From positions 1-64,000 of IMG/VR virus record IMGVR_UViG_3300042197_001295: 64,000 bases of DNA; one strand, written 5' to 3'. This DNA comes from a virus. Under the pieces are notes generated by a model. The model was not told where the DNA came from. It was given only the letters and a program-made list of their open reading frames with translations, and ran no database searches. This document shows, piece by piece, positions 147 through 59,868 of the stretch. Both the position numbers and the translations under genes were made by a program. Within the stretch, counting starts at the first letter, position 1; each line of letters starts with the position of its first letter.

Positions 147-1064
147 TCAAGAATCTGACAAATCTTCGACTAGTTTTGATAATTTTTTATTCAATTCTTC
201 TATTTTACGTAATATTTTTCTTTTACGTTTTAACTTTTGCGTTTCTTTTATTTCTTTATATCCGGGGAGTTTGAACATAGTAATAATTATCCTTTTTAAG
301 AAAAATACTTTTTTTATTTTATTTAACTTTTCTATATTTATACTTGGTCCAAAAATTGGCGTTTTTCTTCCCTTCCAATTTGTTCCCATATTTTCAGAAG
401 ATGTTTCTGAACTATCCAAATGTATAACTATTATTTCTGGTAAAAATTCTCTTTGAGATCTTGTGAATTTTTTAGCATGTAAAACATCTGTTCTGTCACA
501 CGATCCGTGTTCAGTTGGATATTCCATAACGCCAGAAGTTTTTGGATTCCACAATTGCCAAAATCCTATTGGTTCCCACCCACCTTTTTTGTGATGGTAT
601 TCTGCTAATCTAACTCCAATTGGAAATTGATTTGTGTGTATATAAACCCAACCTTCCTGTATTGGTTGGGGATTAGAAATATAATTCATCCATTTTTCAT
701 ACGAATTACACATATATCTATCACATCCATAAATTTTATTTTCGTCTAAAGGGAGATTTTCTAAAATATTTCTTGTTAATGGGGGCAACCAAATATCTGC
801 ATCCATATGCAAAACCCATCCTTTTTTGCTTAAATGTTTCAATCCTTCGTTTATTGCTGCTCCTTTATTAAAAGGATTTTTATCTTTATAAAAAACATCA
901 GTTTGTATACACTTTACATTATAAAATTCGCAAAGTTTTTTAGTTTTTAAATCCTCTTTGTCGGTTACGACTACCATGTTATCAAACATCGATCTATTCA
1001 TTGGCAACGTGTGCGCCAAAAAGTCACTATAATTCACACAAACAACTACTGCTTCAAGATACAT
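147..1064 (-). CDS. glycosyltransferase, family 2-like (GT-A fold)
   Basis: A 305-residue protein with the layout of a GT-A glycosyltransferase: an N-terminal beta-strand (EAVVVCVNY), a nucleotide-binding half, and a DxD-type metal/sugar-nucleotide motif in HMDADIW at about residues 87-92. NKGAAINEGL near residue 67 is also typical of family 2-like enzymes. The C-terminal 60 residues are lysine-rich and coiled-coil-like. Family knowledge: such enzymes transfer a sugar from a nucleotide-sugar. The substrate cannot be read; modification of a virion protein or a host surface glycan are both possible. The neighbour is the divergent tail-fibre gene, and a late octamer lies 13 nt upstream. Confidence 0.7.
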   Translation of the reverse strand: MYLEAVVVCVNYSDFLAHTLPMNRSMFDNMVVVTDKEDLKTKKLCEFYNVKCIQTDVFYKDKNPFNKGAAINEGLKHLSKKGWVLHMDADIWLPPLTRNILENLPLDENKIYGCDRYMCNSYEKWMNYISNPQPIQEGWVYIHTNQFPIGVRLAEYHHKKGGWEPIGFWQLWNPKTSGVMEYPTEHGSCDRTDVLHAKKFTRSQREFLPEIIVIHLDSSETSSENMGTNWKGRKTPIFGPSINIEKLNKIKKVFFLKRIIITMFKLPGYKEIKETQKLKRKRKILRKIEELNKKLSKLVEDLSDS

Positions 1065-1137: not shown

Positions 1138-3222
1138 ATGTCAGATAATTTTGAAGAATGGTTGAATGAAATTTCTTCAGTGCCTAAAGAAATATCTCCT
1201 TTAGAAGAAGAATCTTTTTCGATTGAACAAAATATACCAAAACCAACTAGTTCCCCAGTTGAAAAACCAATTAGAGGAATAGTAGAATGGGATAAGATAA
1301 AAAATAAACCATCAACATTTAATCCTTCAAGCCATAATCATGACGGGATATATGCACCTATATCTCACATGCATCCAATATCTAGTATAATAAATTTACA
1401 ATCAACATTGAGCAGTTTACAACTTTCAGGTGACTATGCACCTATAGTTCATACACACGATATTAGTAGTATTACCAATCTTCAAACTACTTTAGATGGA
1501 AAAGCTGCATCGTCACATACACACGATATTAGTAGTATTACCAATCTTCAAACTACTTTAGATGGAAAAGCTGCATCGTCACATACACACGATATTAGTA
1601 GTATTACCAATCTTCAAACCGAATTAAATAATAGATCATTAACTTCACATAATCATGATAGTTTATATGCTCAATTAGTTCATACACACAATATTAGTAG
1701 TATTACTAATCTTCAAACTGAATTAAACAATAGATCATTAACGAGTCATAATCACGATAGTTTATATGCTTCGATAGTTCATACTCATAATATTAGTAGT
1801 ATTGCTAATCTTCAAACCGAATTAGATGGAAAAGCAGCATCGTCGCATACTCATGGTAATATAACATCTTCTGGAACTATTGGAAATACTTCCGGTTTAC
1901 CGATAAAAACCGGAGCATCTGGTATACTTGAAACTGGTGCGTTTGGCACGGCAGTAGGACAGTTTGCGGAAGGCAACCACAAGCATTTTCTGAACGACAG
2001 TATGCCATATTTGAATGTGCAAGGTTATGAGTTGCCATACCGCTATTCTCAGCAGGATTGGTATTTAGAATTAAACAACTATGAAAGCATTCGAGTTTAC
2101 AAAGATGGCGCATGGAAACTCAATTTTTCGAACAATGATCCAGAAAATTCAGAAAACGTCACGATCACTGGTGGATATGATCTTTATCCGTGGAGCCAAC
2201 CTACTAATTTCCGCAATGCAGGATGGACAGTAAAACCGAGGTTATTCGGTGTACTAATAGACCAACTTGACCCCGGAACAAACAACACAGACTTAGACGC
2301 TACTACGTCTTATCACGGTCTGCTTCCCAAACTCGGCGGCGGCACGACCAATTTTCTCCGGGCCGATGGGACATGGGCCGCGCCTCCCGGTACAGCGTCA
2401 ACAGTAGACATTCGCCTTTACACCGTCAACGACACTTGGACTAATCCATCGCCAAGCTCCGCAAAGCGGGTGTTCGTCCGGTTGGTTGGAGGCGGCGGTG
2501 GCGGTGGCAGTGGACGCAAGGGTGCTACTAGCACTGTTCGGTGTGGCGGCGGTGGCGGCGCGGGTGGGTGCGTTGTCGAGTTTTGGACGCTTACTACTGA
2601 TTTGGGTTCAACGGAATCTGTAACTATTGGATCTGGAGGGTCTGGGGGGGCGACGCAGGCGACTAATAGCACTAACGGAAATGCCGGAACCGCCGGAGGA
2701 GAGACTACATTTGGTGGAGGGATAGCTTCGGGCGGAAACGGAGGAGGAGCTGGGACAAGCAGTAGCGGCACTGCCGGAGGTGGAACTAGCAGTGGTAATT
2801 TGTTTGGTGGCACTACGTCCAATGGCTCTAGTGGCGGCGCAGCAAGCGCGGCTGGAGGCACTGGGGCAGGGGGAACTGGAACGGCTGGGTCGCTACCGAG
2901 CGGTGGCGGCGCGGGTGGAGGCATTACAAGCGCGAATGTTTCTTCAACTGGAGGCTTAGGGGGCACGGTGGGGTCTAACACTATTGGCACGATTTCTGGC
3001 GGAGCAGCCGGAGCAGTGGCAGGGAACGGAGGCGCAGGGAATTCGGGGCGAGGGGTGGGGACTGGCGGTGGCGGTGGCGGTGGGAACGGAGGCGTAGGAG
3101 GGAACGGTGGTGGATTCGGAGCCGGAGGTGGCGGAGGTGGCGGAATAACAAATGACACTGGTATTACCAACGCAGGCGGCAATGGTTCGCCCGGGTATGC
3201 ACTTATTATAACTTATCTATAA
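1138..3222 (+). CDS. tail fibre with HxH repeats and a glycine-rich tip
   Basis: A 694-residue probable tail fibre. Residues 55-240 contain repeated SHxH / VHTHDISSITNLQ units, the histidine-pair repeats seen in trimeric phage fibres. The middle (about 240-440) contains the fibre-type sequence TTNFLRADGTWAAPPG. The C-terminal part, from about residue 447, is very glycine-rich (VRLVGGGGGGGSG and many GG runs), like receptor-binding tips of other phage fibres. Base composition changes sharply: the repeat part is AT-rich like the rest of the genome, whereas about 2330-3200 is GC-rich. This suggests the tip was acquired from another phage. A small chaperone-sized gene follows directly. The receptor is unknown. 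Confidence 0.85.
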   Translation: MSDNFEEWLNEISSVPKEISPLEEESFSIEQNIPKPTSSPVEKPIRGIVEWDKIKNKPSTFNPSSHNHDGIYAPISHMHPISSIINLQSTLSSLQLSGDYAPIVHTHDISSITNLQTTLDGKAASSHTHDISSITNLQTTLDGKAASSHTHDISSITNLQTELNNRSLTSHNHDSLYAQLVHTHNISSITNLQTELNNRSLTSHNHDSLYASIVHTHNISSIANLQTELDGKAASSHTHGNITSSGTIGNTSGLPIKTGASGILETGAFGTAVGQFAEGNHKHFLNDSMPYLNVQGYELPYRYSQQDWYLELNNYESIRVYKDGAWKLNFSNNDPENSENVTITGGYDLYPWSQPTNFRNAGWTVKPRLFGVLIDQLDPGTNNTDLDATTSYHGLLPKLGGGTTNFLRADGTWAAPPGTASTVDIRLYTVNDTWTNPSPSSAKRVFVRLVGGGGGGGSGRKGATSTVRCGGGGGAGGCVVEFWTLTTDLGSTESVTIGSGGSGGATQATNSTNGNAGTAGGETTFGGGIASGGNGGGAGTSSSGTAGGGTSSGNLFGGTTSNGSSGGAASAAGGTGAGGTGTAGSLPSGGGAGGGITSANVSSTGGLGGTVGSNTIGTISGGAAGAVAGNGGAGNSGRGVGTGGGGGGGNGGVGGNGGGFGAGGGGGGGITNDTGITNAGGNGSPGYALIITYL
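1459..1620 (+). repeat. 66-bp in-frame tandem repeat in the fibre gene
   Basis: Identical 66-bp units lie at 1459-1524 and 1525-1590. A third copy, identical for its first 29-30 bases, starts at 1591, and degenerate copies follow to about 1850. Each unit encodes 22 residues (DISSITNLQTTLDGKAASSH plus TH). The near-identity points to recent duplication or continuing recombination in fibre length. Confidence 0.9.
2330..3222 (+). other. GC-rich imported segment encoding the fibre tip
   Basis: This part of the fibre gene uses GGC, GGT, GCG and CGG codons and is visibly GC-rich, while flanking genes are strongly AT-rich. The composition returns to AT-rich at the stop codon. It marks a recently exchanged adhesin tip. 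The complementary strand has an open proline-rich frame only because the sense strand encodes glycine runs. Confidence 0.75.
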
Positions 3223-3228
3223 AATAAA

Positions 3229-3645
3229 ATGAAAAGGATAGCACATATTCAAAACGAAAAAATAATAAACGTAAGTGTAGGAAAAGACGATTGGATTGCT
3301 CCTGAAGATGGAAGTATGATGTTAGAATCAGATGCACTTTCTTTAGGATATACTTATTTTTCAAAAAATATTATTAATTACGATAATGCTCCTTCTTGGA
3401 AAGTAAAAATATGGTTGCTGAGAAACGGAATAACTTCTCAAGACATTTCAAATACTATTGTTCAAATTTATGAAAATATGTATGGCGAAAATCTCACAAG
3501 TCAACAAGAATTGGAAAAACAAGAAGCTCTTTTACGATGGGAAAATGTTACAGAAATACCATTTGATCATCCATTGGTAGGTTTAATAGCAAATCAATTA
3601 AATATAAATTTGGAAAATGTATGGAATGATATTCACAGCATTTAA
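3229..3645 (+). CDS. small unknown protein, possible fibre chaperone
   Basis: A 138-residue protein starting 6 nt after the fibre gene. No family was recognised with certainty. The phrase PSWKVKIWLLRNGI at about residues 63-76 and the acidic C-terminus resemble small proteins encoded behind phage tail fibres, some of which assist fibre assembly. That role is inferred from position and size only. The sequence before its ATG is A-rich without a Shine-Dalgarno sequence, so it probably shares the fibre transcript. Confidence 0.6.
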   Translation: MKRIAHIQNEKIINVSVGKDDWIAPEDGSMMLESDALSLGYTYFSKNIINYDNAPSWKVKIWLLRNGITSQDISNTIVQIYENMYGENLTSQQELEKQEALLRWENVTEIPFDHPLVGLIANQLNINLENVWNDIHSI

Positions 3646-15072: not shown

Positions 15073-15966
15073 TTAATATTTACTTTGTTTTAATGCTTTT
15101 GCGAATAAATCAACAACAGGATCACTTGTAACATTATTGGTTTGTCTTGGATTCGGCCTAGAAAGAGATTTGGGAACACTTTGATTTTCGTTTATCATAC
15201 CAAAATTTCCAGAAGTATTTCCTCTTCTAAGACTTTCTCCAATACTCTTGACTTTTTTACTTTCACTTATTTGGAATTGCTTGACTAAAAAGTCAAAATT
15301 TTCTCTAATGAAACTTTCGCTTCTGTCACTACAAACAACTCTCATGTGCTTTTGTAATGCACTGGGAAGATTGCTAATACGCATTTCCAAATACTTGGCA
15401 CCTTTTGCTCTTGCATTTTCCAACAAGAGTTCTTTGTTTTTGGCTTTGAGATTTTGCGATTCTTTAACTGCTTTCTTAACTTCTTCCGGCATAACAGTAA
15501 CCTTTAAAGATTCTTGTAATTTGGAAAGAGTTTCGGCAGCATGGGTATTTTTTGCAGCTTCGTTTATCTTTTTGTGAATATTCGGAATTTCTTCGACTAA
15601 AATAGTTTCCAAATAAGAATCTAATTTTTCAACAATAGTATCGAAATCGCGTTTTGCTTTTTTCTTTAATTCAGATTCGTAAAATGTCTTAACCTTTTTG
15701 AGTTTTTGAGTTTTATCTTTAATGATGTGATTAACCAACATTTTAGTTTTAGACAAAACATCATCATCAAGAGATTCTAAAAGCTTTTTGGTTTTATTGG
15801 TAACGTCTTCATCAAAAGCTTTTAGTGCAGCATCAACTGCAATATCTATTTCCTCTTGTTTTCTTTCCTCAAGTTGTTTGACTTTTGCGGAAACTTGCGA
15901 TTCAAAAGCTTCTAACAATTCTTTCTTTTGAGATTCTGTTAATTGATAATTTTCAAAAAGGTTCAT
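15073..15966 (-). CDS. 22: prohead scaffolding core protein gp22
   Basis: A 297-residue, strongly charged, mostly coiled-coil protein typical of T4 gp22 (269 residues in T4). Heptad-rich Lys/Glu segments cover residues 10-190. The better conserved part near 195-235 (MRISNLPSALQKHM, SFIRENFDFLVKQF) resembles gp22 of T4-like phages. The N-terminus MNLFENYQLTE|S ends in an LxE protease site like those of neighbouring proteins. In T4 it forms the prohead core and is degraded by gp21. A late octamer lies 11 nt upstream. Confidence 0.8.
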   Translation of the reverse strand: MNLFENYQLTESQKKELLEAFESQVSAKVKQLEERKQEEIDIAVDAALKAFDEDVTNKTKKLLESLDDDVLSKTKMLVNHIIKDKTQKLKKVKTFYESELKKKAKRDFDTIVEKLDSYLETILVEEIPNIHKKINEAAKNTHAAETLSKLQESLKVTVMPEEVKKAVKESQNLKAKNKELLLENARAKGAKYLEMRISNLPSALQKHMRVVCSDRSESFIRENFDFLVKQFQISESKKVKSIGESLRRGNTSGNFGMINENQSVPKSLSRPNPRQTNNVTSDPVVDLFAKALKQSKY

Positions 15967-16022: not shown

Positions 16023-18722
16023 TCAAACGGGTTTATTTTCTATTTTAGTAGAAATTACATATGAAATATTATTCGCCGCAGGACGCGATCTCGATTTGTG
16101 ATCTGTAACTCTGAAGGTGTCATTATTTTCTAATCTATAAAGCGGGTGAATACTGTTATAATTATTAATATTTGGTTGATAAGAATTATTTTGGAGATAA
16201 TTTTGCCCTATATATATACTATTATCGTTTTCTGTGTTTAATGTAATAACATGATTCGACTGCTTATACGGAAGAAAATTAGCAAAATAATTATCTGTCC
16301 CAGATTCTGAGATATAAAAAACCATTATTATATTTTTAGTTTGGGGGAGGTATTCATTTAAAATATCTCTACCCGAGGTAAAGTCGGACGGTTCGCCGAC
16401 ATATATAAATGTAAAATCTTTTCTATTTTCATAAATTTTACTAGAAGGAACATTTTTTTTGTCAAATGCTATTACAATTTTGTGATATCCATCGTCTCCT
16501 CCTATTATTGTCGGTATAATTAGTCTGTTATTGTATCTACCCCCATATTTGAAATCTGTTAATTCTAAACTAAAAGATGTATTTGAAGTTTTGGGTTTTG
16601 ATTTTACAAATTGTTCAGGAACAGGATTTTCTGACATATAATTATAAAACATTCTTTTTAATAAAATACCCGTAATACCCAATTCTTTTGAAATATCATA
16701 TATTATTTTATCGCTATTTTGTTGAGTTAAAATAGAACTAACAATTAAAGACATTCTCCTTTTTAAATCTGATTCATCGATTTTTGTAAGAAATTCAGAA
16801 AATTTCCCTTTATATTTTGGCAAAATTTCCTTATTTATAAATTCATTATTCACATAATACGAATCCTTACCTTGTGCTAAATCTTTTAAAAAATCTACAA
16901 AATTGCTATAATCATCCTTGGTTGGTTCTATATGTTTAAGAAAATAAGATGCTATTTTTGCATATTTTTCATAAACTGGGTTGTTCTTAACTAAGTCATT
17001 TAATTTTTTAGGAATATCTACTTTTAAATCACCATACAAATCTGAATTATAAAGTAATTTACCAAGTTGTAAATTTGGTTTTAAACCTTTCATATCTGTT
17101 GCTTTTAAACCAATGCTTATATTTCCTATTGATTCTTTTATCGTATTTTCAGGTTTATCTAGTAAATTAAACTCTGCAAATATTTCTTTTGCTATTTCTT
17201 CGGTTATCTCTGATTTTATTGCATCGTCTTCTTTTTTCGGTTTGAAAAAATAATTAATTTTATCCAAAAAGCTTTTCTTAGTTGGTTTGTATAAAGACGA
17301 AGAAAAAGAACCAGTTATAATAGGAATAGAACTTGGATTTATTCTAGTGTTATATATATATTTGAAATGACTACCGTCTTCAGAAACATCATGAAACATT
17401 CCTATTTGATTTTCTGGACTTAAAATATTATTCATGAATTTTACAACATTTACTATTCTTTTAATGGCAAATCCAGTTATATCAGTATTATATTTTTGGT
17501 TTAATTTTGTTGCGAATTCGATTTCTTTATCTAAAGTTTTTGCAGTAATCGTCGAAGGAGTTTCAGATGTAGGAACAATAGTATTATCGTTTTCTAAATA
17601 ATATTTATAATGTTCTTTTAAATTTAAAAATTTTGATATTGGATATATAATATCAGAATCATCGATCAAATTCCACAGTGCTGACAATTGAATGAAAAAA
17701 TCTTTAGGTTTATCTGGCAATTTATAATTACCCAGTATATTAAGTCGTACTCCTAAATCACCACTATAAGCTTCTTCATAGAATTTTTCGTTACATGTAC
17801 GTAAATGTTTAATAATTGATTCTTTATATCTTTCCTTATATTCTCTAGTAAAAATATTATCAAGTTCTTCAAACATTTCTTGTTTATCTTTACCCTCATA
17901 GTTCACAGGTCTTTTTTTACCAAAAGCATAAATAAAAAGCAAAATAAGACCCCACCAATAACGGTTTACTTCTTTTTTCAAAAAAGTCGAAGTTCTTTCT
18001 TCTAATTGTTTTTTTAGTTTTTCTAATTCATTTTGCAATTCTGGTATTTCATCATCTAAATCTGATTTCTCCTTTTTTATTTTTTCTAATAGGTCTGTTA
18101 ATTCCTTTAATTGTCTTGTCAATCCATCAGAAATTGTAATGTCATTAGTAGAATCGGGAATTTTTGTTTTTAATTGTTCAATTTCTAATCTTACTCTAGC
18201 TATTTCAGCTATAATTTCATCTTGTCTATTTAAACCAATATTTATATTATTTTCTATTACTTCAATTTCACGATTTGTTGTAACTATTTTATTTTTATCT
18301 ATTCTGCTTTTATTATTTTTATCTACCCATGATCTGAAATGTTCTTTCATTTCGTCATACCTGTTTCTATTTTGCCATATAAACAAATAACATTTTTTCA
18401 ATAAACCTTTCATGGTATCTTTATTTTGAATCAAACTCCATATTTTAGAATCTTCGCTTTTTATATGATTTATCATATCCTGTAATCCTTTATCGTCCGA
18501 TAAAATCGTATCAAAAGAGTTATTAAACGAGTTTTCGTTTGTTAAACTATTAATATAATCTTTTAAAGTAGGTAAATTATATAATACGTTTAAAACTCTT
18601 TGAAAATTATGATTGTGAGAATAATTATTTCTTGTTCTGAATGTTTCTATTATATTGTCTATGGAATCGATCTTAGGTTTTGATGCCGCTTCTGTTATAT
18701 ATTCATACAAATAAGATTTCAT
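16023..18722 (-). CDS. large probable internal head protein with capsid-targeting start
   Basis: An 899-residue protein of unknown function. It begins MKSYLYEYITE|AAS, very like T4 capsid-targeting sequences (MKTYQEFIAE|A), and cleavage after Glu11 is predicted. Residues about 150-245 are a long coiled coil, followed by a hydrophobic segment (WWGLILLFIYAFG) near residue 260. The C-terminal half is a globular Lys/Asn-rich region. It lies between scaffold gp22 and the ADP-ribosyltransferase-like genes. A role as a packaged, possibly injected, protein is inferred. No enzyme motif was recognised. Confidence 0.65.
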   Translation of the reverse strand: MKSYLYEYITEAASKPKIDSIDNIIETFRTRNNYSHNHNFQRVLNVLYNLPTLKDYINSLTNENSFNNSFDTILSDDKGLQDMINHIKSEDSKIWSLIQNKDTMKGLLKKCYLFIWQNRNRYDEMKEHFRSWVDKNNKSRIDKNKIVTTNREIEVIENNINIGLNRQDEIIAEIARVRLEIEQLKTKIPDSTNDITISDGLTRQLKELTDLLEKIKKEKSDLDDEIPELQNELEKLKKQLEERTSTFLKKEVNRYWWGLILLFIYAFGKKRPVNYEGKDKQEMFEELDNIFTREYKERYKESIIKHLRTCNEKFYEEAYSGDLGVRLNILGNYKLPDKPKDFFIQLSALWNLIDDSDIIYPISKFLNLKEHYKYYLENDNTIVPTSETPSTITAKTLDKEIEFATKLNQKYNTDITGFAIKRIVNVVKFMNNILSPENQIGMFHDVSEDGSHFKYIYNTRINPSSIPIITGSFSSSLYKPTKKSFLDKINYFFKPKKEDDAIKSEITEEIAKEIFAEFNLLDKPENTIKESIGNISIGLKATDMKGLKPNLQLGKLLYNSDLYGDLKVDIPKKLNDLVKNNPVYEKYAKIASYFLKHIEPTKDDYSNFVDFLKDLAQGKDSYYVNNEFINKEILPKYKGKFSEFLTKIDESDLKRRMSLIVSSILTQQNSDKIIYDISKELGITGILLKRMFYNYMSENPVPEQFVKSKPKTSNTSFSLELTDFKYGGRYNNRLIIPTIIGGDDGYHKIVIAFDKKNVPSSKIYENRKDFTFIYVGEPSDFTSGRDILNEYLPQTKNIIMVFYISESGTDNYFANFLPYKQSNHVITLNTENDNSIYIGQNYLQNNSYQPNINNYNSIHPLYRLENNDTFRVTDHKSRSRPAANNISYVISTKIENKPV

Positions 18723-19243: not shown

Positions 19244-20062
19244 TTATATTTCATTTTCTACACCAACAATTTCAACATCGTCTGGATTGAAAATAACTAC
19301 ATTTCTTGTTATTTTTGGGATGGGATTTGATTGAGTCGGTCTTGAGTTTGCATCTGGATAAATTATTCCTTTGATACCGTTTTTTAATAAAAATAAAGAA
19401 GCAGCTTTGGGTTTGTTATGGCAATACCCTTCTAACAATCCTCCGTTTTCTTTTGGTATGGAAAAAGATTCTTTTATACCTTTGTATATTTCAAATCCAC
19501 TAGATTCTTCTAAAATATGTATGTTAGATGTAACATAATTCATTCCTCTTTCTATTTGATTTTTGTAACTAGACAATACTGTTTTAACAAATTTGGTTTG
19601 ATCCTCAAAAAGATCAAACCATTTTAAAAATTCATCTTCATTTGCTTTGATTTCTACGATATATAATTTTCCTGCGGGAGGAGCGAACAACTCGTTTGGA
19701 AGAGATTCGACATATTTTATTCCATCTGTTAATCCTGCTTTTTTTAAATAATCTATAATACGATCTTTGCTCCAGTGTAATAAAATAAAATCCCATATTA
19801 TCATTTTAGGATAATCTTGAGAAATATTAAAAAATTCATACCATTCTATACCAGCTACTTCTCTATATTTGTATTCTTCTTTATGTGCTTGTTGTATATA
19901 ACTAGCGGCAACGGATTTATTTTCGGCAAAATAAAATCCCCAACCAAATGCTTGTGCGCCTTCACCTGAACCTATTTTGTCATAAACGAATTTTTTTTCA
20001 TCAAATGGAACTGCCGAACCATGATATGCTCTTTCGTTTAACCATTGTTTAAATGTTTCCAT
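19244..20062 (-). CDS. ADP-ribosyltransferase-like internal head protein
   Basis: A 272-residue protein. The start METFKQWLNE|R is a predicted capsid-targeting peptide with cleavage after Glu10. Next comes AYHGSAVPFDEKKFVYDKIG and then GSGEGAQAFGWGFYFAEN, a pattern I associate with ART-like domains of phage polyvalent proteins (YHG plus GxGxYFAEN). An H-Y-E type active site is inferred; the third residue was not assigned. The precedent is T4 Alt, a head-packaged, injected ADP-ribosyltransferase. I chose 20062 rather than the upstream ATG at 20110 because only it gives the targeting peptide at the N-terminus. It overlaps the next ART-like gene by 25 nt. Confidence 0.7.
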   Translation of the reverse strand: METFKQWLNERAYHGSAVPFDEKKFVYDKIGSGEGAQAFGWGFYFAENKSVAASYIQQAHKEEYKYREVAGIEWYEFFNISQDYPKMIIWDFILLHWSKDRIIDYLKKAGLTDGIKYVESLPNELFAPPAGKLYIVEIKANEDEFLKWFDLFEDQTKFVKTVLSSYKNQIERGMNYVTSNIHILEESSGFEIYKGIKESFSIPKENGGLLEGYCHNKPKAASLFLLKNGIKGIIYPDANSRPTQSNPIPKITRNVVIFNPDDVEIVGVENEI

Positions 20063-20931
20063 TTTTCTTCCTCCAGAGCTTTTTGAAAATCGTCTAAATG
20101 GTTGGGCCATACATATTTCAATATATTCTCAGTGTTCATATTTTTAAAAATATTTATCACTTGTTTTTTAGACAACTTAATTATTGGGTTGGCGAGTAGT
20201 CTGTCGATAAAAATATCAAAATCAAATTTTTCTCTTGGTTTCAGAACTCTAAAATTATTTTTATTTAAAGATTTCGGTTTAAGATGGGAATATTGTTTTA
20301 AAAATTGCTTTGGTGTCAATCTAGTATATTTGGTATCTCTGTTCACATATTTATTTGGAGTGTCGTTAACCCATATTGCTTTTATAGAATTGTTGTTTAG
20401 TTCTCCTGTAAAGAGTGCTTGATATTCTGACGAAAAATATAGAGATTGTGCTAACTCTGGTCTATCGCTATTTTTAATAGAATCATATTTGCTTTTTGAT
20501 GCAATATTTCTAATTCTTAATCTTTCATGTTCTCTTTTTTGATCATCGCCAAAAAAGAATTGTGCTGGTTGACCTTGGATGGTATGATTGCCCTCCGGCC
20601 AAACAGGTGCCTCTAGATCAGAAACTCTGGAGCTAAATTCTATTATATAATTTCCAAATTCTTTTACCGTTCCCAAATCTATACTTACGAATAAACCTTT
20701 TGGGTTGTTATCAGCTTCATATGAATATATTCTTCTTGCTGTTTCCTTTCCGGTTAATCCAAAATCTAGGAATTCAAATAAATCACTTACTCTATTAAAA
20801 CCGTGATATACTGTTATAACATCTGAATCTTTTAGCGGTTCTAATTTATCAGTAGAAATATATGAACCATTTCGTTGTCGTCCAACTTTTATTGTTTTTG
20901 ATTCTATTAGATAATTTTTAAAAGATATCAT
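20038..20931 (-). CDS. second ADP-ribosyltransferase-like internal head protein
   Basis: A 297-residue protein starting MISFKNYLIE|S, a predicted capsid-targeting peptide cleaved after Glu10. The region VITVYHGFNRVSDLF at about residues 39-53, followed by PKGLFVSIDLGTVKEFG and an EFSSRV strand, resembles the ART-like pattern of the downstream gene, with Phe where Tyr is usual. The C-terminal third is basic and unassigned. Two ART-like genes in tandem resemble the Alt/Mod situation of T4, where such enzymes modify host RNA polymerase and other targets. Target and activity are inference. Confidence 0.6.
   Translation of the reverse strand: MISFKNYLIESKTIKVGRQRNGSYISTDKLEPLKDSDVITVYHGFNRVSDLFEFLDFGLTGKETARRIYSYEADNNPKGLFVSIDLGTVKEFGNYIIEFSSRVSDLEAPVWPEGNHTIQGQPAQFFFGDDQKREHERLRIRNIASKSKYDSIKNSDRPELAQSLYFSSEYQALFTGELNNNSIKAIWVNDTPNKYVNRDTKYTRLTPKQFLKQYSHLKPKSLNKNNFRVLKPREKFDFDIFIDRLLANPIIKLSKKQVINIFKNMNTENILKYVWPNHLDDFQKALEEEKWKHLNNG
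20067..20074 (-). promoter_or_regulatory. Shine-Dalgarno-like site, unusual in this genome
   Basis: GGAGGAAG on the minus strand, 4 nt before ATG 20062 (GGAGG is 7 nt before). It lies inside the end of the upstream gene (which ends at 20038). Most genes here lack such a site. It also encodes Glu-Glu of the upstream protein, so coincidence is possible. Confidence 0.45.
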
Positions 20932-20967: not shown

Positions 20968-21246
20968 TCATTTTTTCTTACCGTATCCGCAATCTCTTGG
21001 ACATTTCCCTCCACTGCACTTTCCATTACATTTCCATTTTCTTCTGGAAAGTTGATTAGGGCTGCATTTTCCTTTGTCTTTTATTCCGGCACTACGAGTA
21101 CAATATCTAACGCCTTTACAAGTTCCGGGAGCGATTGTATAATCTTTGTGACCATGACTAACTGTTTTTCCTCCGCATTTTGTTTTCCACTTCTTTTTGG
21201 ATTCGTTTAACATGGAATTTAAGTAATTGTTAAATTTTGTAAGCAT
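20968..21246 (-). CDS. small Cys-rich basic protein with capsid-targeting start
   Basis: A 92-residue protein. MLTKFNNYLNSMLNE|S forms a predicted targeting peptide cleaved after Glu15. The mature remainder is very basic with nine Cys in pairs and singles (KTKCGG, GTCKGVRYC, KCNGKC, KCPRDCG), which suggests a metal- or disulfide-stabilised fold and possible DNA binding in the head. Small basic internal proteins (T4 IPI-IPIII) are the precedent. No enzyme family was recognised. GATAAATA lies 9 nt upstream. Confidence 0.65.
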   Translation of the reverse strand: MLTKFNNYLNSMLNESKKKWKTKCGGKTVSHGHKDYTIAPGTCKGVRYCTRSAGIKDKGKCSPNQLSRRKWKCNGKCSGGKCPRDCGYGKKK

Positions 21247-21298: not shown

Positions 21299-21865
21299 TT
21301 ATTTTGTCGTGACTTTATTATAATCTGGATTACGTGCTTTTATTTCTTCTGTATTGTCTTCGTCTTCTATTACAAAACCTGCTCTAGTAATTGCGATTTT
21401 ATTATTATTGATTCTTAAATTAATATTATCTTTTTTATCGAGTGACACAGAAGGTCTAGAAACAACAAACTGAGGATTGTGATTCATTCTGAAATGTTTC
21501 AATATTTCTATTCTTGTATTTCTTATAATTTCTAATTCATCTTTTCTGTCTTCCCTATCTTCGCATCCATTTAAATTTGCATCCATAGCCCAGAAAGTGT
21601 GATTTATTCTTGTGGATATTTCATATTTATCCAACTCCTTGTCGTCGGGATATAATTCAAATTCTATATGTACATGGTTCCTTCTGCGAGTTTTTCCCTT
21701 ATATACAAATTTAGTATTTTCCTTTCTATTATTATCATTACCAAATATAACACATGAACCTGTTTTTTTAGTAACTTCTATATTAATTTTATTTGGTGTT
21801 TCAAATGTTGAAACATCAGATTCATTTAACATGGAATAAAAATATTTGTTAAATTTTTCAAACAT
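21299..21865 (-). CDS. probable internal head protein, paralogue A
   Basis: A 188-residue protein with start MFEKFNKYFYSMLNE|S, predicted to be cleaved after Glu15. The body is charged, and the most conserved part is CEDREDRKDELEIIRNTRIE near residues 103-122, followed by ILKHFR and NPQFVVSRP. The same block occurs in the next gene upstream, so the two are a tandem duplicate pair. Function unknown. TCTAAATA lies 5 nt upstream. Confidence 0.65.
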   Translation of the reverse strand: MFEKFNKYFYSMLNESDVSTFETPNKINIEVTKKTGSCVIFGNDNNRKENTKFVYKGKTRRRNHVHIEFELYPDDKELDKYEISTRINHTFWAMDANLNGCEDREDRKDELEIIRNTRIEILKHFRMNHNPQFVVSRPSVSLDKKDNINLRINNNKIAITRAGFVIEDEDNTEEIKARNPDYNKVTTK

Positions 21866-21933: not shown

Positions 21934-22503
21934 CTATACTTGTGTTTTATAATTTGGATTGCGAGCTTTTATTAAATGCGCGTTTTCTAAGTCATCTAAG
22001 ATACTTTCCGGTTTATCTTCTATTACAAAACCTGCTCCAGCAATTGCGGTTTTATTATTATTGACTCTTTTTAGAAAATCTCGTCTTTCTTCTTCACTCA
22101 TTTGGAAAGCGGGTTTTGAAATAACAAACTGAGGATTATATTTCGTTCTGAAATGTTTTAATATTTCTATTCTTGTATTTCTTATAATTTTTAATTCTTC
22201 TTTTCTATCTTCCTTATCTTCACAATTTTCTAATGCATTAGAACCAACAGATCTATAAGCACCATTTATCATTGTAAATATTTCATATGTATCTGGTTCT
22301 TTATGTGTATCTAGTAAAAATTTTACTATTATGTAATTACCTCTTTTAGTTTCTCCATCATAGAGGTAATACGTGCCATATAAATTTGTTTTTAATTCTA
22401 TTTTTATTTCAATTTCATCTAATATTGTATCATTTTCATCTAATATTGTAAATGTAGATTTATTAAAAAAAGACTTGAGATAATCGTTGAATTTTTTTAA
22501 CAT
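21934..22503 (-). CDS. probable internal head protein, paralogue B
   Basis: A 189-residue paralogue of the 21299 protein, sharing CEDKEDRKEELKIIRNTRIE, ILKHFR, NPQFVISKP and a C-terminal (I)KARNPxY. Its N-terminus MLKKFNDYLKSFFNKS aligns with the targeting peptides but ends in FNK|S instead of LNE|S. The Glu needed by a gp21-type protease is missing, so this copy may not be cleaved. TTTAAATA lies 5 nt upstream. Function unknown. Confidence 0.65.
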   Translation of the reverse strand: MLKKFNDYLKSFFNKSTFTILDENDTILDEIEIKIELKTNLYGTYYLYDGETKRGNYIIVKFLLDTHKEPDTYEIFTMINGAYRSVGSNALENCEDKEDRKEELKIIRNTRIEILKHFRTKYNPQFVISKPAFQMSEEERRDFLKRVNNNKTAIAGAGFVIEDKPESILDDLENAHLIKARNPNYKTQV

Positions 22504-25364: not shown

Positions 25365-25844
25365 ATGTTGAACAAATTTAATAATTATTGTGAAACTTTT
25401 CTTGGAATTATTTGGAGAACAAACCGCGATGAAGACGAAAACGACTATCCAGAAGGTAGAGACGATAGAGAAGTCTTACCTAGTCAATGGTGGGGATTTT
25501 GGCTTTTGCCAGATGGAAAACTAAGACCAGTAGGAATGATGCAACACCAAGAAGCGGGACGCGACATTTATAAAAAGATAAATCCAGAGGGACTCCATAA
25601 AGATGCTTTAAATGAAAAAGCAGAAAAATTAACAATTGTAGATTTTTTAAAAATGGGTTGGGCACTTTTAAGAATAGTAATAGATGGAAGTAATAATTAT
25701 AAAACGATATTTTGTGATTATGATAGTAGTAAAGGATTAGACAGTTTGCAAAATAAAGCATTAACGGGTTTACGGAAAGAATATAAAATATCAAAAATTA
25801 TAGAAAAAGGAATAGTTCCAGAAAATGTATACGGGATAAAGTAA
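25365..25844 (+). CDS. unknown protein with degenerate targeting-like start
   Basis: A 159-residue protein. MLNKFNNYCETFLG matches the first part of the local targeting peptides (MLxKFNxY) but lacks the terminal Glu, so cleavage is not predicted. The body has SQWWGFWLLPDGKLRPVGMM at about residues 40-59 and a helical, basic C-terminus. No family recognised. It lies beside gp21 but is transcribed away from it. Confidence 0.55.
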   Translation: MLNKFNNYCETFLGIIWRTNRDEDENDYPEGRDDREVLPSQWWGFWLLPDGKLRPVGMMQHQEAGRDIYKKINPEGLHKDALNEKAEKLTIVDFLKMGWALLRIVIDGSNNYKTIFCDYDSSKGLDSLQNKALTGLRKEYKISKIIEKGIVPENVYGIK

Positions 25845-57873: not shown

Positions 57874-59868
57874 ATGGCAGTAGATTCAAGAAAAACCTTA
57901 TTAATAACTGATTTAGATCCAACGGTTTTTGGGAAAATAACAATAGGCAATAAATGTTATGTTAGTATTCCAACAATGAGTGGATCTGGTTTTAACTCAT
58001 TATTTAGATACAGTATAAGAGATTTAGGAGATGTTAGTAATGACGCAATTCCGGTAGAAAATAATATTCTTGCATTTAAAAACGGAAAATGGGTTTCGTC
58101 TGTTATTGATTCCACTTTTAAACAAAACTTGGATATAAAATTAAATGATATAACCGATGTTAATTTAAACCAAAATTTAGCACAAGATAGTGTTTTATCA
58201 TGGGACGGTATTTCTAATAAATGGATACCAAAAGCGATTACGTCTAATCAAGATAATAATAATAATGTATATGTTCCAGAAAGAATAAAGTTTGTAGGAA
58301 CAGCAAAAGGACAAACAGAAGGTGTTTTTGTTGTTTCTACAACAAATGAAATATATCAATCCGGGGTATCCAATAGTGTTTATAATTATTTTACAGCAGC
58401 AGCTCCCGGAGGAACTACGGATAGATTGGTATTATCCCCATTTTCAGAAGAAGACGGACCAGTAGACGGATCAGGATGGAAAAAAGTGTTATTTAACAAT
58501 AGAAATTGTTATGCATTAACTGTTAACGGACAACTTTGGGCAAAAGGATTTAATGATTGTGGACAATTAGGAGTTGGGACTAAAGTCCCTGTTACAGCTA
58601 ATAGTAAAACAGATGTGTTCAGACTAGTAAGTCCTCCAAGTTTCATTGCGGGTTCCGTTACGATTAAAACTGTTTTTGAAGATATAGATATATCTTGGTC
58701 AAATCCTACTGCTCTAAGATCTCAAGAGGTTGTGGTAGCCGCAATATGTAGAAAAGATACACAATCACAAGTACCCGGAGCAGATAGATATCTTTTTGTA
58801 TGGGGTAATACATTTATAACTGAAGCTAATGGTATTGAGAATACACCTAAACGAATATCTAATTTCGATGCGTTAAAACCAATTAAAGTATCATTGGGAA
58901 TGAGTGGTGCTACACATTATACTGTTTTATGCGAAGATGGAAAAGTTTTTACGGCAGTAAATAGACTTTTCGGAGATCGGGCATCAGATAGAACTTTCAA
59001 TAATACTTTAGTTACCACGTATGCTGGAAATCCTTTAGGAAGATCTCATACACTTTCAGCATTTCCCGTAAGTAGTTTTAATGAAGTTTCGTATGATGTG
59101 ACGCCAGTTCCTATTATAAAAGATATTTATAATGGATGTGGTGCATATTTTCAAACTACTACCACCAGTTCGTATGCGCCCTATACTATGTTAATAGATA
59201 ATAACGATAAATTATACTATGCTGGAAGAAATAATACAGGACAAGCAGGAATAGGAACAAAAACTACAATCGCAACATCAACTTCTGCTAGTGGACAAGG
59301 CGCATTTGTTGCATGTATTAACTCTACCACAAACGGTCAATTAAGAGTTAAAAGTTTCGGAATAAATGACGGAGCATTTCATTTTGCACACATAGAAAAA
59401 GACACTGAAAAATTAGTAACTCTTGGTTCAAATATAGGAAATCAATTAGGAACATTAGGAGCAGCAAATATGGTTACTAGTGCATATTCTATAGTAAATA
59501 TGCCGCTTAGTGGAGAAACTATTAAAAAAGTAATAACCGGGTCATATGCTACTTCGACCGGGGATAATACTTTATCCGGTATGACCATGGTATTGACAAA
59601 TAATGGTCTTGTTTATACATTCGGTCATTGCCCAAATGGGCAAAGCGGAAACGGAAGACTTAATCCTGCTCTTCCAGCTATTGTTCCTATGCCAGAACCT
59701 ATTTTTGATATTACTATGGTTGGAGCAGATCAAGAATCTGCTATATTTGTATTAGGAAATAGCGGACGAGGATATGTTTGGGGTGCAAACAATAAAGGAC
59801 AAACTGGAGCATTGCCCCCCAGTATCGGTTCCATCCCATATCCTATAAATGTTCCAATTCCTCAATAA
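57874..59868 (+). CDS. RCC1-like beta-propeller tail protein
   Basis: A 664-residue protein. From about residue 140 onward it shows RCC1-type repeats: ALTVNGQLWAKGFNDCGQLG, TMLIDNNDKLYYAGRNNTGQ, MVLTNNGLVYTFGHCPNGQS and GRGYVWGANNKGQTG (G-x-L/V-W/Y-x-x-G-x-N-x-x-G-Q-x-G). The N-terminal 130 residues have fibre-attachment character (ALSWDGISNKWIPKAI-like). A role as an adhesin or tail-tip propeller following the collar protein is inferred. TATAAGTA lies 10 nt before the ATG. Confidence 0.75.
   Translation: MAVDSRKTLLITDLDPTVFGKITIGNKCYVSIPTMSGSGFNSLFRYSIRDLGDVSNDAIPVENNILAFKNGKWVSSVIDSTFKQNLDIKLNDITDVNLNQNLAQDSVLSWDGISNKWIPKAITSNQDNNNNVYVPERIKFVGTAKGQTEGVFVVSTTNEIYQSGVSNSVYNYFTAAAPGGTTDRLVLSPFSEEDGPVDGSGWKKVLFNNRNCYALTVNGQLWAKGFNDCGQLGVGTKVPVTANSKTDVFRLVSPPSFIAGSVTIKTVFEDIDISWSNPTALRSQEVVVAAICRKDTQSQVPGADRYLFVWGNTFITEANGIENTPKRISNFDALKPIKVSLGMSGATHYTVLCEDGKVFTAVNRLFGDRASDRTFNNTLVTTYAGNPLGRSHTLSAFPVSSFNEVSYDVTPVPIIKDIYNGCGAYFQTTTTSSYAPYTMLIDNNDKLYYAGRNNTGQAGIGTKTTIATSTSASGQGAFVACINSTTNGQLRVKSFGINDGAFHFAHIEKDTEKLVTLGSNIGNQLGTLGAANMVTSAYSIVNMPLSGETIKKVITGSYATSTGDNTLSGMTMVLTNNGLVYTFGHCPNGQSGNGRLNPALPAIVPMPEPIFDITMVGADQESAIFVLGNSGRGYVWGANNKGQTGALPPSIGSIPYPINVPIPQ

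Follow-up and report, generated by a model that had tools for sequence, protein, structure and literature searches.

Although only distantly related, the Alteromonas phages A5 and V22 have a common host-recognition module, which was attributed to horizontal transfer (PMC10579305). The fibre gene described here is a clear case of this well-known kind of exchange and resembles that of A5 and V22 in that phages of different families share a fibre together with the small gene that follows it. However, A5 and V22, whose hosts are known, have the whole fibre-chaperone module in common, whereas in our case a resident shaft appears to have received the tip alone, from phages differing by 30 points in GC, and the only pointer to the host is a prediction from sequence. 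Two other described systems are close to the tip itself. Bxb1 gp33, which forms the tail wing brush of a mycobacteriophage, was reported as a PPII-helical bundle like that of phage S16 (PMC13243192). The glycine-rich domain of our fibre is homologous to gp33 (PDB 9d93; E 1.5e-9 and 1.2e-6), and the motifs GGGGGSGR and LGST occur in both, but gp33 is a separate gene of another phage, and the shaft and first tip domain are not in common. A possible analogy is offered by gp38, the glycine-rich adhesin of S16 (PDB 6F45) and other T-even phages, through which a T4-like fibre would likewise carry a glycine-rich tip distally. In contrast to gp38, which is a separate protein, the domain described here is the C-terminus of the fibre frame and not the product of a gene behind it; no match to 6F45 or gp38 was found at E values up to 1, nor any match to the GP38 Pfam family.

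The window, that is, the whole 64,000-nucleotide stretch analysed, sits in an 81-kb virus record, and all 64 kb are identical to positions 12680-76679 of a second contig of 144,634 bp (IMGVR_UViG_3300042198_000079, hereafter G001 or the 144.6-kb genome). A gp23-type capsid (PF07068, E 4.5e-75) and a gp20-type portal (PF07230, E 4.4e-62), together with a terminase, identify the phage as a T4-like myovirus of ~30% GC overall, with a capsid ~29-33% identical to those of the best-matching named T4-likes. Single-protein scans of IMG/VR for close relatives, using gp23, the terminase and an 881-aa gene, recovered only the identical contig. An alignment scan returned T4-likes at ~30% among the matches listed, and the first part of the tip was absent from 23 other T4-like contigs among those matches. 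No relative carrying another, pre-exchange tip was found in these searches, and the tRNA genes looked for as a host clue are absent.

The fibre gene (1138-3222) is a single open frame of 694 aa, in which an anchor and an HxH shaft are followed by a non-repetitive tip domain, a linker and a glycine-rich domain that runs up to the stop codon (Table 1). The tandem repeats in the shaft could permit variation in shaft length through recombination. The fibre gene is immediately preceded by an oppositely oriented family 2 glycosyltransferase gene (147-1064, minus strand).

Table 1. Coordinates of the fibre gene segments, the adjoining small gene and the proteins with a similar N-terminal stretch, in window positions.
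Feature	Position	Strand	Remarks
N-terminal anchor and HxH shaft of Phage tail repeats	1138..1857	+	Pfam PF12789 (PTR), E 1.5e-35; GC3 0.14; fourfold-site GC 0.17
Tandem DNA repeats in shaft	1450..1824	+	66-bp unit (perfect, 100%) and, overlapping it, a 99-bp unit (88%)
Transition stretch to last HxH (HKH) motif	1858..1977	+	GC3 0.25; L004 DNA match starts at 1978
Putatively imported tip, part 1: non-repetitive domain and linker (LDATTSYHGLLPKLGGGTTNFLRADGTWAAPPG)	1978..2397	+	Fourfold-site GC 0.45; identity to L004
Putatively imported tip, part 2: glycine-rich domain to stop codon	2398..3222	+	Fourfold-site GC 0.44; PHROG 754 match
Small gene of the tip cassette, 138 aa	3229..3645	+	47% identity to L198:4791-5174
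Proteins with similar N-terminal stretch	15073-15966, 16023-18722, 19244-20110, 20038-20931, 20968-21246, 21299-21865, 21934-22503	-	
Protein with similar N-terminal stretch	25365-25844	+	

Base composition changes sharply along this frame. Raw GC is ~0.30 at 1138-1899, rises to ~0.60 at 2330-3222 and is 0.28 in the next gene, and GC3 follows the same course, from 0.14 in the shaft to ~0.46 in the tip (1978-3222), against ~0.20 in the rest of the window and genome. At fourfold sites the shaft has a GC of 0.17 vs 0.19 in the rest of the 144.6-kb genome, and both parts of the tip depart from that genome value (29/64 sites, p 1.5e-6, for 1978-2397; 92/208, p 1e-16, for 2398-3222). All three measures confirm the original prediction that AT-rich HxH repeats give way to a GC-rich, glycine-rich tip within one frame, and codon use marks the tip as foreign. 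Its boundary at 2330 has to be moved, however: the raw GC step there reflects mostly the onset of Gly/Ala-rich protein, codon use already shifts at ~1900-1978, by the last HxH motif, and 1978-2397 is not glycine-rich, yet is foreign in codon use too. The 5' crossover is likely located in the preceding stretch, 1858-1977, where fourfold-site GC is 0.31 over 26 sites, a value not significant alone.

In scans of 2.9 million viral contigs, the full tip was found in one other phage, a 36.6-kb siphophage contig of 62% GC (IMGVR_UViG_3300011116_000965, hereafter L004). The sole strong DNA match between the window and L004 spans 1978-3220, from the HKH codons to the stop codon (74.9% over 1261 bp). 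The tip proteins are 76% identical, and 67% over the first 122 aa; GC3 of the aligned tip codons is 0.459 in the window and 0.605 in L004; and their divergence by NG86 amounts to a Ks of ~0.85 and a Ka of 0.19, with a lower Ks of 0.41 by YN00. Outside the tip, L004 has an unrelated backbone and a collagen-like shaft instead of the HxH shaft. A second GC-rich relative, L198 (5.5-kb contig, 59% GC), has a backbone 71-73% DNA-identical to that of L004 and a tip 64% identical to that of the window. In the tip tree, window and L004 form a pair supported at 99/98, which L198 joins at 100/99. Homology limited to the tip in otherwise unrelated phages marks the tip as a laterally exchanged module. Because the window pairs with L004 and the adjoining L198 has an L004-like backbone, transfer from siphophages to the T4-like phage is the most likely direction, although this direction rests on few sequences, since close relatives of the tip occur in just two other phages. 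Searches beyond these did not find the tip: it did not turn up when 85,000 genomes were scanned for an exact pattern, nor in terminase-bearing regions of Verrucomicrobiota loci, and named phages matched the linker alone. More distant glycine-rich tips, and also the linker, were found in Verrucomicrobiales genomes, mostly of 58-64% GC, in a comparison that covers Verrucomicrobiota and is not to be read as making the domain exclusive to that phylum. The L004 terminase likewise has relatives in Verrucomicrobiota (45 of 46 matches at 50-70% identity, and the remaining one, in an Opitutae genome, at 25%). Two other leads were set aside: the lone phage DNA match, to Dulem virus 61, falls in a low-complexity glycine repeat, and the AT-rich contig L207, although nearly as long as L004, has no DNA match to it, so that the similar length is coincidental.

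The tip is followed by a small gene in both L004 and L198, and the window has the same arrangement. Its small gene is homologous to that of L004 in the N-terminal half and unlike it in the C-terminal half, and its relative in L198 adjoins the L198 tip on the 3' side. The C-terminal half matches small genes at two sites of the Verrucomicrobiales genome G496, at one of which (L187) the homologue lies ~1.8 kb behind a glycine-rich tip gene, and behind several other glycine-rich tips, too, there is a small gene whose N-terminal pattern looks similar by eye. An 18-bp DNA match at the small-gene start (window 3239-3256, E 3.5) is merely suggestive. The small gene has no Pfam, NCBIfam or PHROG match, no homology to known fibre chaperones and no match in the search for phage counterparts, and its relatives match PHROGs of unknown function only; its model (pLDDT 68) consists of short strands and then helices. 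Possibly it acts in fibre assembly or is associated with the tip.

Taken together, these observations indicate, with a probability of roughly 85%, that the fibre gene is a natural chimera with its own anchor and shaft and a tip from a GC-rich siphophage lineage infecting Verrucomicrobiota. A T4-like myovirus would have retained its anchor and HxH shaft and gained the segment from ~1900/1978 to the stop codon at 3222, by a 5' crossover near the HxH motif and a 3' crossover where the conserved small gene starts or just ahead of it, sites that would preserve both the reading frame and the cassette. If the small gene was already resident, the event would have replaced an older tip. The horizontal origin put forward in the original prediction is well supported, by codon use, by the tip-confined DNA homology, by the tip tree and by the AT-rich control phages considered below, but its description as recent stands only in part, as the tip is partly ameliorated (GC3 0.46, vs 0.60-0.62 in the GC-rich relatives) and its nearest relative is as divergent as given above. 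Likewise, the nucleotide search for a donor yields L004, a relative at 76% in protein rather than the donor itself.

It might be argued that no transfer took place and that a Gly/Ala-rich domain is GC-rich through its GGN and GCN codons, or requires codons ending in G or C. The rise in raw GC at 2330 is indeed largely explained by codon positions 1 and 2, but foreign composition extends to the third and fourfold positions, including those of 1978-2397. Moreover, 45% of glycine codons in the fibre end in G or C vs 15% in the protein that ranks next in glycine content in this genome (138 Gly), and three AT-rich control contigs with glycine-rich tips match the GC3 of their own genes (tip/other genes: L207, 0.23/0.22; L208, 0.15/0.16; L213, 0.17/0.19). 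That gene and these contigs rule out amino-acid content as the cause, and an origin without transfer is very improbable. Hardly more credible is an assembly chimera, in which a fragment of a GC-rich phage was misjoined into an AT-rich contig. The 81-kb and 144.6-kb contigs, identical over 64 kb, may share one assembly or population; against this, an intact frame crosses the 5' junction, AT-rich composition resumes right after the stop codon, and the small gene expected of the cassette comes next, with AT-rich codons. In addition, the tip is just 75% DNA-identical to L004, and its GC3 lies below that of its GC-rich relatives.

The reverse direction, with the T4-like phage or its lineage donating the tip to siphophages, is only slightly less improbable. 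The GC3 of the L004 tip (0.60) is slightly under that of other L004 genes (~0.71), but further GC-rich contigs, e.g. L201, likewise have a lower GC3 in this domain. The window tip differs widely in GC3 from its genome (0.46 vs 0.20), whereas the tips of L004 and L198 are near theirs, and the next relative of the window/L004 pair is L198 with its L004-like backbone. A more serious alternative, possible but less favoured, is that a single event brought in both the tip and the small gene, the latter then ameliorating faster. The two genes are adjacent in L004 and L198, and both window genes are homologous to theirs. However, GC3 is 0.18 in the small gene vs 0.46 in the tip (p 6e-12), and the two differ in their nearest relative, as the tip is nearer to L004 than to L198 (76 vs 64%) and the small gene nearer to L198 than to L004 (47 vs 31%), although the C-terminal half of the L004 small gene looks replaced. 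Thus the AT-rich codon use of the small gene, in the same two-gene cassette as the tip, suggests that it is part of an older resident cassette whose tip was replaced later, a reading that presumes similar amelioration rates for tip and small gene.

The glycine-rich domain matches the minor tail protein family PHROG 754 (57-322 of 325, E 1.5e-17). It falls outside the Pfam family Gly_rich_2, since PF21722 scores 18.8 bits on the tip, below the cut-off of 24.3, and the AlphaFold model of the tip (pLDDT 31) is too low in confidence to be used for a polyglycine II helix bundle. Judging from its position and family, this domain is the predicted receptor-contacting end of the fibre. The imported tip would set which surface structure the phage binds, most likely one on Verrucomicrobiota. 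The original prediction saw in the exchange a change of host range, but the relatives of the tip, which point to Verrucomicrobiota, are as compatible with a shared host as with a host jump, and a verrucomicrobial host is the better prediction. This provides a testable host prediction for an orphan T4-like lineage, and the locus documents an intragenic exchange of a probable receptor-binding tip between phage families that differ strongly in base composition, together with its likely direction. A more tentative idea, which we would not favour at present, is that a deep T4-like lineage infecting Verrucomicrobiota repeatedly took tips from siphophages of the same hosts, with crossovers at the HxH motif and at the start of the resident small gene. 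If so, tips would be swapped through a defined cassette that works between phage families and spans a 30-point GC gap.

Several other features of this genome deserve mention. Outside the window, G001 119826-121424 (L167/L168) is a second GC island. It holds a gene whose MKSFRQYLNSFLTEN start is AT-rich and whose body has ~50% GC, and behind it a gene whose ADP-ribosyltransferase match stays below threshold (ART-PolyVal, 26.3 bits, cut-off 31.2). The end of the contig, G001 1-716 (L162), is also GC-rich (~0.5) and may be an import or an assembly edge; by eye, it encodes a short helicase-like fragment. Within the window, a 664-aa protein with RCC1 repeats is encoded amid phage structural genes (57874-59868). 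Finally, many otherwise unrelated window proteins begin with a similar short N-terminal stretch (METFKQWLNERA, MISFKNYLIES, MLTKFNNYLNSMLNES; Table 1), and more are found elsewhere on G001. This stretch is reminiscent of the capsid-targeting sequence of packaged internal proteins in T4, and in the protein encoded at 19244-20110 it precedes a weak ADP-ribosyltransferase-like match (DUF3990, ART-PolyVal).
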